A stretch of DNA of 64,000 bases from contig NZ_AMWJ02000001.1 in the NCBI RefSeq assembly GCF_000319305.2, positions 434,001 to 498,000 of the forward strand, in the 5' to 3' direction. The translations under genes and the position numbers were made by a program. The notes beneath the pieces are model-generated. The model saw only the letters and a list, made by a program, of their open reading frames with translations, ran no database searches and was not told the DNA's origin. Source of the stretch: Pseudomonas bharatica CSV86. GTDB taxonomy: Bacteria > Pseudomonadota > Gammaproteobacteria > Pseudomonadales > Pseudomonadaceae. Of the stretch, positions 26,510-27,985 are shown piece after piece. How positions within the stretch are numbered: the first letter of the stretch is position 1; every line of letters starts with the position of its first letter.

Positions 26510-27985
26510 TTACATCTTTGGCATTTTATCAACCAGAAATTCCGGATACCCTTCTTTTGCAGCTTCGTCCAGTTGCGGGGTGAACTCCCGCTCGATCAGC
26601 GCCTTGCCGCGCAACTCGTCCAGGCCGCTCCAGAAACCGCAGGCCAGGCCTGCCAGGTAGGCGGCGCCCAGGGCAGTGGTTTCGCGCATTTGCGGACGCT
26701 CGACGCAGGTGCCGAGAATGTCTGCCTGGAACTGCATCAGGAAGTTGTTGGCCACCGCGCCACCGTCCACGCGCAGGGCGCTGAGGCGCTGGCCGCAGTC
26801 TTGCTGCATGGCATCGAGAACGTCGCGGGTCTGGTAGGCGATGGATTCCAGGGCGGCGCGGATGATGTGATCGACCTTGACCCCGCGGGTCAGGCCGAAC
26901 AGCGCGCCGCGCGCATACGGATCCCAGTAGGGCGCGCCAAGGCCGGTGAAGGCCGGCACCAGGTACACGCCGTTGCTGTCCTTGACCTTGCTGGCGAAGT
27001 ACTCGGTGTCATGGGCGTCGTTGACGATCTTGAGTTCGTCGCGCAGCCATTGCACGGTGGAGCCGCCGTTGAACACTGCACCTTCCAGCGCGTAGGCCAC
27101 TTCGCCCCGCGGGCCGCAGGCGATGGTGGTCAACAGGCCGTGGGACGACTGCACGGCCTTCTCGCCGGTGTTCATCAGCAGGAAGCAGCCAGTACCGTAG
27201 GTGTTCTTGGCCTGGCCGGGCTCCACGCACATCTGGCCGAACAGCGCGGCCTGCTGGTCACCGGCGATACCGGCGATGGCGATGTTGCTCTTGGTATAGC
27301 CGTAGATTTCCGAAGAGGGACGTACCGGCGGCAGCATCTGTTTCGGGATGCCCAGCACTTCGAGCATCCTTTCGTCCCATTGCAGGGTATGGATGTTGAA
27401 CAGCATGGTCCGCGAGGCGTTGGTGTAGTCGGTGACATGCACCTTGCCGCCGGAGAATTTCCAGATCAGCCAGGTATCGACGGTACCGAACAGCAGCTCG
27501 CCGCGCTCGGCACGCTCGCGCACGCCCTCGACGTTGTCGAGGATCCACTTCAGCTTGGTTCCGGAGAAGTACGGGTCGGTGACCAGGCCGGTGGTTTCGC
27601 GGATGTAGTCCTGCAGGCCGTCGCGCTTGAGCTGCTCGCAGATCTCGGTGCTGCGCCGGCACTGCCAGACGATGGCGTTGTACACCGGGCGCCCGGTTTC
27701 CTTGTCCCAGACCACGGTGGTTTCGCGCTGGTTGGTGATACCGATGGCAGCCACCTGGTCATGGCTGATGCCGGCCTGGGCCAAGGCCTCGACCATGGTC
27801 GCACTCTGGGTGGCGAAGATTTCCATCGGATCGTGCTCGACCCAGCCGGCTTGCGGATAGTGCTGGGCGAACTCGCGCTGGGAGGTCCCGACGACGTTGG
27901 CGTCACGGTCGAAGATGATGGCCCGCGAACTGGTCGTGCCCTGGTCGAGGGCAATGATGTAGTTCTTGTTCTGAAGGTCGGTCAT
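26510..27985 (-). pseudogene. glpK: GlpK, glycerol kinase, 3' end replaced by insertion element
   Basis: Glycerol kinase phosphorylates glycerol to sn-glycerol-3-phosphate. The FGGY-type kinase fold is intact: [12 protein letters not shown] at the N terminus, [13 protein letters not shown], and [19 protein letters not shown]. Residues 1-478 are native (27985-26552). The element then cuts in after DEAAKE and adds 13 foreign residues, [13 protein letters not shown], before a stop at 26510. The 21 missing native residues lie at 23493-23561; native plus detached parts give 499 residues, the normal length. Whether the 491-residue chimera is active is open: the core is complete but the conserved C-terminal helix with two tryptophans is lost. 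It lies after glpF in the same operon. Confidence 0.93.

Follow-up and report, generated by a model that had tools for sequence, protein, structure and literature searches.

How did the glycerol kinase gene (glpK) at this locus come to end in codons that are not its own, and does the encoded protein still function? Within the window (the whole 64,000-nucleotide stretch of DNA analyzed here), glpF, glpK, glpR, and glpD follow one another in this order on the minus strand, and an element of 2,985 bp sits between glpK and glpR. The glp features, in window coordinates, are the following:

20907..22469, minus strand: glpD, full-length match (NF008899, 798.9 bits; cut-off 360)
22613..23368, minus strand: glpR, full-length match (NF008154, 336.4 bits; cut-off 331)
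23493..23558, minus strand: stranded native 3′ end of glpK, 21 codons plus stop (by translation; similar to the ends of relatives)
23559..23566, no strand assigned: target-site duplication TTCTTTTG, far side (extracted twice)
26510..26551, minus strand: 13-residue tail plus stop encoded by the insertion sequence (IS) and fused in frame to glpK (pLDDT below 50 for residues 481–491 of the model)
26552..26559, no strand assigned: target-site duplication TTCTTTTG, glpK side (extracted twice)
26552..27985, minus strand: glpK, native codons 1–478 (TIGR01311, 726.4 bits; cut-off 590.35; the match ends at residue 478)
28031..28882, minus strand: glpF, full-length match (TIGR00861, 232 bits; cut-off 171.25)

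The frame of the chimeric glpK runs through native codon 478, continues with 13 codons of the IS (26513–26551), and terminates at 26510–26512; its product of 491 amino acids keeps 478 native residues, gains 13, and loses 21, a tally which the sequence-only reading had already given and with which the translation agrees. The 21 missing codons lie at 23496–23558, followed by the native stop codon at 23493–23495. The earlier reading had placed the lost residues correctly, but its interval (23493–23561, instead of 23493–23558) is one codon too long, the surplus being part of the target duplication. GlpK proteins with 92–99% identity comprise 499 amino acids (496 in one case) and end alike; the closest named matches are from Pseudomonas arcuscaelestis (95%) and Pseudomonas monteilii (93%). 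Immediately outside both IS ends, a perfect 8-bp duplication, TTCTTTTG, is present (23559–23566 and 26552–26559), as would be expected from the earlier claim that a duplication marks an insertion. That glpK was interrupted and truncated, with its native 3′ end stranded on the other side of the IS, is likewise borne out by the reading frames and the flanking octamers. Thus, insertion of an ISL3 element after codon 478 truncates glpK. The reading favored here, to which we assign a probability of roughly three in four, is that this insertion swapped the last 21 GlpK residues for 13 others and left a chimera likely to have little or no activity, the predicted C-terminal helix being mostly gone.

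The element itself comprises the following features, to which a second copy within the window is added:

23567..26551, no strand assigned: ISL3-family IS (CLJ-ISL3, an ISPst2 isoform), 2985 bp (by family matches, and by length and ends as given in the available part of PMC7643977)
23567..23590, no strand assigned: terminal inverted repeat GGGTATACGGATTTAATGGTTGAT (the same 24 nt appear in that part of PMC7643977)
23567..23627, minus strand: hairpin in the stretch from the tnpA stop to the IS end, strand reading towards glpR (−25 kcal/mol; z −4.06)
23625..24902, minus strand: tnpA, ISL3 transposase, 425 aa (NF033550, 298.9 bits, cut-off 180; PF01610, PF14690, PF13542)
24915..25949, minus strand: passenger permease, ArsP_1/SO_0444-like, 344 aa (PF03773, 196.5 bits, over the cut-off; NF033936, 134 bits, under the cut-off of 300)
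26061..26375, plus strand: passenger regulator of the ArsR/SmtB type, 104 aa (PF12840 and PF01022 over the cut-off; NF033788, 51.2 bits, just under the cut-off of 55)
26528..26551, no strand assigned: terminal inverted repeat, complement of GGGTATCCGGAATTTCTGGTTGAT (the same 24 nt appear in that part of PMC7643977)
38562..41546, no strand assigned: second identical IS copy, with the duplication AAAATTCC on both sides (locus L172)

The DDE transposase, the terminal inverted repeats (24 nt, matching at 20 of 24 positions), and the 8-bp target duplication all place the element in the ISL3 family. Its permease is related to the SO_0444 Cu/Zn efflux family, with a score below the cut-off of that family. 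Over its entire 2985 bp, the element is identical (100%) to a stretch of the Escherichia coli U12A plasmid record NZ_CP035471.1. Judged by this identity, its length, and its permease and ArsR passengers, the element in glpK is CLJ-ISL3, already known as an isoform of ISPst2. CLJ-ISL3 was described, in the part of PMC7643977 available, as a 2985-bp ISPst2 isoform present in 6 copies in P. aeruginosa CLJ1 and in 40 copies in CLJ3, and as matching, at 100% identity, a segment of pU12A_D, a plasmid from an E. coli ST131 isolate; pU12A_D and NZ_CP035471.1 are here taken as one plasmid. As far as that account extends, the two elements share the length of 2985 bp, equal 24-nt ends, an ISL3 transposase together with a 344-aa permease and an ArsR-type regulator, 8-bp duplications, and amplification within one strain. 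The present case differs from CLJ1 and CLJ3 in that the host is another Pseudomonas, 59 full-length copies are found, and a second ISL3 element was co-amplified. By eye, the neighbors of the second copy in the window (38562–41546) are a dihydroorotase-like and an OmpA-like ORF.

The copy in glpK is one of many. The host genome assembly, which spans 6.79 Mb in 9 contigs and is 88% complete, contains 84 exact matches to the 32-nt left end of the element and 63 to its 36-nt right end. All 84 left ends were retrieved with 1.2-kb flanks (loci L133–L216) and comprise 59 full-length copies of 2985 bp, 3 partial copies, and 22 copies of an ISPpu12-like element. Of the 59 full-length copies, 55 are identical to the query over all 2985 positions, and gaps (1, 2, 9, and 1 bases) are the sole difference in the remaining four; polishing of the assembly could have inflated this identity. 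When the left-end pattern was searched for in 398 Pseudomonas genomes, it was found 84 times in the host, once each in four others, and not at all in 393; draft assemblies may under-count repeats, and many of the genomes without a hit are single contigs (contig counts were available for 148 of the other genomes). An element that was already known has thus multiplied in a host new to it, in a burst that appears to be recent. The completeness of 88% is low for nine contigs; it may reflect marker genes broken by IS copies, or small indels.

The second ISL3 element is 3373 bp long and shares its first 1,240 bp with the 2985-bp element at 99.3% identity. It resembles ISPpu12, for which the available part of PMC12060670 gives the gene set tnpA, lspA, czcD, and cueR, in that its ORFs read, by eye, as a transposase and as LspA-, CzcD-, and MerR/CueR-like proteins. 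It is likened to ISPpu12 by this gene set, and it differs from the ISPpu12 portrayed there by having its first 1240 bp 99.3% identical to the CLJ-ISL3-type element, and by being nested with the latter in composites. At four places, a 2985-bp copy interrupts an ISPpu12-like copy, with no change of internal site from place to place, and each of these composites (L136/L137/L226, L142/L143/L227, L162/L163/L229, and L165/L166/L230) carries a perfect outer 8-bp duplication of its own; for a fifth candidate (L161/L228), neither outer end was seen, which leaves four of five candidates. The nested composites seem to have moved as units. At three other places (L145, L164, and L179), the 2985-bp element lies within its own copy, again at the same internal site (positions 2736–2743).

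Of the 84 left ends, 61 have a perfect 8-bp duplication, a count in which, as we read it, two nested structures appear twice; 13 have unequal flanks, and for the remaining 10 the script located no end. Four of these 10 are the outer ends of nested composites and could be closed by hand, with perfect duplications. For stand-alone ISPpu12-like copies, the duplications were perfect in 15 of 18 cases. Because the glpK site is among the 61, the arrangement found there is not a product of chance. The many identical copies are a known source of misassembly, which could in principle have created the junction in glpK, and small indel errors are likely somewhere in the assembly, given the gaps in some copies and a glycerate kinase gene read in two frames (see below). 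Misjoining does not, however, generate perfect duplications, as present here and at 60 other left ends, and both parts of glpK adjoin the element and match their counterparts in relatives. An assembly artefact is thus hardly credible as the origin of the truncated gene. As to the unequal flanks, the copies L142, L187, and L216 look like one-base indels or changes, and in the pairs L150/L152, L197/L203, and L170/L206, the two octamers beside a copy disagree with each other yet match one of another copy, as recombination between elements predicts. The ISPpu12-like copies often vary in length by one or two bases.

The target octamers are 76% A + T, as compared with 37% for the window, and AT-richness appears to have guided the choice of targets. 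Long open frames also hold somewhat fewer insertions than random placement would give: an open run of at least 200 codons, which by itself is no proof of coding, surrounds 44 of 61 insertions, versus 94% of 2,000 random positions in the window. An AT-rich hotspot peculiar to the glpK site was considered and ruled out; among the 1,427 octamers of the retained glpK (the site included), 19 have the same AT count. Genes other than glpK were also hit. Of the 61 sites, 10 were scanned, drawn from the longest spanning open frames, with both halves searched separately against NCBIfam. Split frames were recognized for a FadE acyl-CoA dehydrogenase, an NahK/ErcS hybrid sensor kinase, an SbmA-like ABC transporter, an MFS symporter, and an integrase (loci L178, L189, L200, L160, and L213), and the other five sites gave no family at an E-value of 1e-10.

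Because the insertion in glpK is one of 84 ISL3 left ends, no explanation specific to glpK is needed, and it is probably a by-product of the recent burst. The pool of ISL3 transposase (from 59 full-length copies and 22 of the sister element), rather than anything about glpK, can account for the event: an element preferring AT-rich targets would have met glpK by chance, and the insertion would not have been purged since the gene would be dispensable. It might instead have been selected, if loss of glpK was advantageous in the niche of the strain or in laboratory culture, and phenotype-changing insertions of the same element in P. aeruginosa CLJ1 and CLJ3 have indeed been read as adaptive (PMC7643977, in the part available). 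Such selection is unneeded in a genome with 84 elements; the main text of PMC7643977 contains neither “glpK” nor “glycerol” (0 occurrences each), and no other strain with this insertion in glpK was found among the best 120 of 7,998 proteins. We regard selection as very improbable and retain the by-product reading. As a mutation, an IS-truncated glpK is ordinary; the genome-wide event is moderately interesting. With 84 left ends of two near-uniform elements in one genome, and one or none in each of the other 397 Pseudomonas genomes scanned, it illustrates in readable form how metabolism can be trimmed when mobile elements multiply in a burst. More tentatively, and with somewhat less than even odds, a transposition storm may still be under way, in which two passenger-carrying ISL3 elements (one with a metal permease and ArsR, the other with LspA, CzcD, and CueR) that share a near-identical transposase end mobilize one another and travel together in nested composites of 6.4 kb. 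In this scenario, essential genes would filter insertions to AT-rich gene edges, and catabolic genes that the cell can do without, glpK among them, would be lost as by-products. Conjugation is a possible trigger of the burst, a lead that reportedly stems from work on ISPst9 by Christie-Oleza in 2009; among the literature matches listed, none dealt more closely with such a trigger.

Whether the chimera works depends on what its lost end contributes. The sequence-only reading had left two alternatives, loss of activity or a tolerated insertion at the very end of the gene, of which the former is now the better supported, by conservation of a motif and by predicted loss of a helix. Like GlpK of E. 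coli and of other bacteria (FGGY family), the chimera has the core domains (PF00370 and PF02782) and the family score (TIGR01311, 726.4 bits), but unlike them it lacks the C-terminal helix with its YxGW..A motif, which is replaced by 13 unrelated residues. The Trp-x-x-Ala motif of the lost tail was found, as a loose pattern, in 109 of 109 relatives with identities down to 64% and including Bacillota, and the strict form YxGWxxA[VI] in 105 of them; these relatives comprise the 29 best loci, other than that of the strain itself, from 149 genomes of the genus and 80 loci kept from a wider search of genome contigs. In an alignment of 41 GlpKs, W484 and A487 are invariant. Among the best 120 database proteins, a list ranked by score and therefore favoring full-length proteins, W..A[VIA] is kept near the end in 118; both exceptions look damaged in our reading, one having an adaptor-like and the other a frameshift-like end.

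Structure prediction points in the same direction. In the AlphaFold2 model of an intact GlpK (95% identical), residues 474–492 form a helix, with block pLDDT values of 95 (471–480), 87 (481–490), and 56 (491–499). In that of the chimera, the helix is down to residues 474–479 and the block values fall to 67 and then to 43, whereas the core is mostly confident (mean pLDDT 87.4); AlphaFold measures neither stability nor activity. Crystal structures of E. coli GlpK can be aligned with the model as far as its residue 497, which shows the C-terminal end to be ordered in the solved enzymes. Since the motif is conserved in relatives and the predicted helix is lost, the chimera is likely to have strongly reduced, little, or no glycerol kinase activity. 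That it still works, the C-terminal helix being dispensable, is unlikely in our view, despite an intact conserved core, a family score far above the cut-off, two Shewanella GlpKs (492 aa; L118 and L131) that end shortly past the motif, and a last block in the intact model weak enough for the extreme tail to seem dispensable. What is lost here includes the W..A core itself, which is absent from none of the 109 relatives; the two database exceptions look damaged, and the helix that is shortened in the chimera is predicted with high confidence in the intact relative. The same chimera was not found elsewhere among the best 120 of 7,998 scored proteins, the best of which is 93% identical. Among the matches listed, judged by title and abstract, none reported a C-terminal truncation of GlpK or an IS in a Pseudomonas glpK. 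The chimera offers a clean test of whether GlpK needs its conserved C-terminal helix.

If the chimera is inactive, as favored here, the strain probably has no other GlpK: a second glpK, the presence of which had been left to a genome search, was not found in the 6.79-Mb, 88% complete assembly, where TIGR01311 and the protein itself, used as queries, each gave a single match; a copy in the missing sequence would have escaped this search. Lacking GlpK, the strain would form no glycerol-3-phosphate from glycerol, and GlpR would tend to stay bound. The latter had been claimed from the sequence and holds if glycerol-3-phosphate is the sole inducer; it is weakened by speculation, in the available part of PMC7188995, that other phosphorylated derivatives might also induce.

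The main effect of the insertion could also be polar, the IS and its hairpin stopping transcription from the glpFK promoter, thereby lowering expression of glpR and relieving the repression of glpD and glpF. The position of the IS between glpK and glpR would allow this, as would the stable hairpin at 23567–23627, which lies on the strand that reads into glpR (0 of 200 shuffles were equally stable). On the other hand, a consensus scan for terminators did not pick up the hairpin, and tnpA and glpR are read in one direction, which makes a mainly polar effect improbable. A promoter in the IS aimed at glpR was also considered and dropped, since the IS end concerned has none nearby and the single site in the region is what shuffling leads one to expect. 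The hairpin may influence the transcription of adjacent genes.

With loss of GlpK activity remaining the preferred reading, glycerol would be used at most via the slower periplasmic oxidation route, provided that this route is whole. P. putida KT2440 devoid of glpFKRD is strongly impaired in its growth on glycerol, which then proceeds via oxidation by PedE/PedH and via GarK, and additional removal of pedE and pedH, or of garK, abolishes it (PMC7188995, in the part available). Growth on glycerol is therefore not a clean test of GlpK. In the strain studied here, such a GlpK-independent bypass may be whole or broken; if the chimera is defective, the strain could show how a Pseudomonas without functional GlpK copes with glycerol. 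The genome contains three matches over the cut-off for PQQ alcohol dehydrogenase, two of them ∼8 kb apart. The GarK-type glycerate kinase (PF02595; G000:C2:2654871-2655985; L231 and L232) is matched by two pieces that adjoin each other but differ in frame, the second of which contains two TGA codons; the gene is thus frameshifted, either truly or through an error of the assembly. A match to the MOFRL-type glycerate kinase had been considered as GarK and was dropped once a check against the Gly_kinase family gave the two-frame GarK-type match. This MOFRL-type enzyme, which belongs to a different family, is represented by one match and open over 461 codons.
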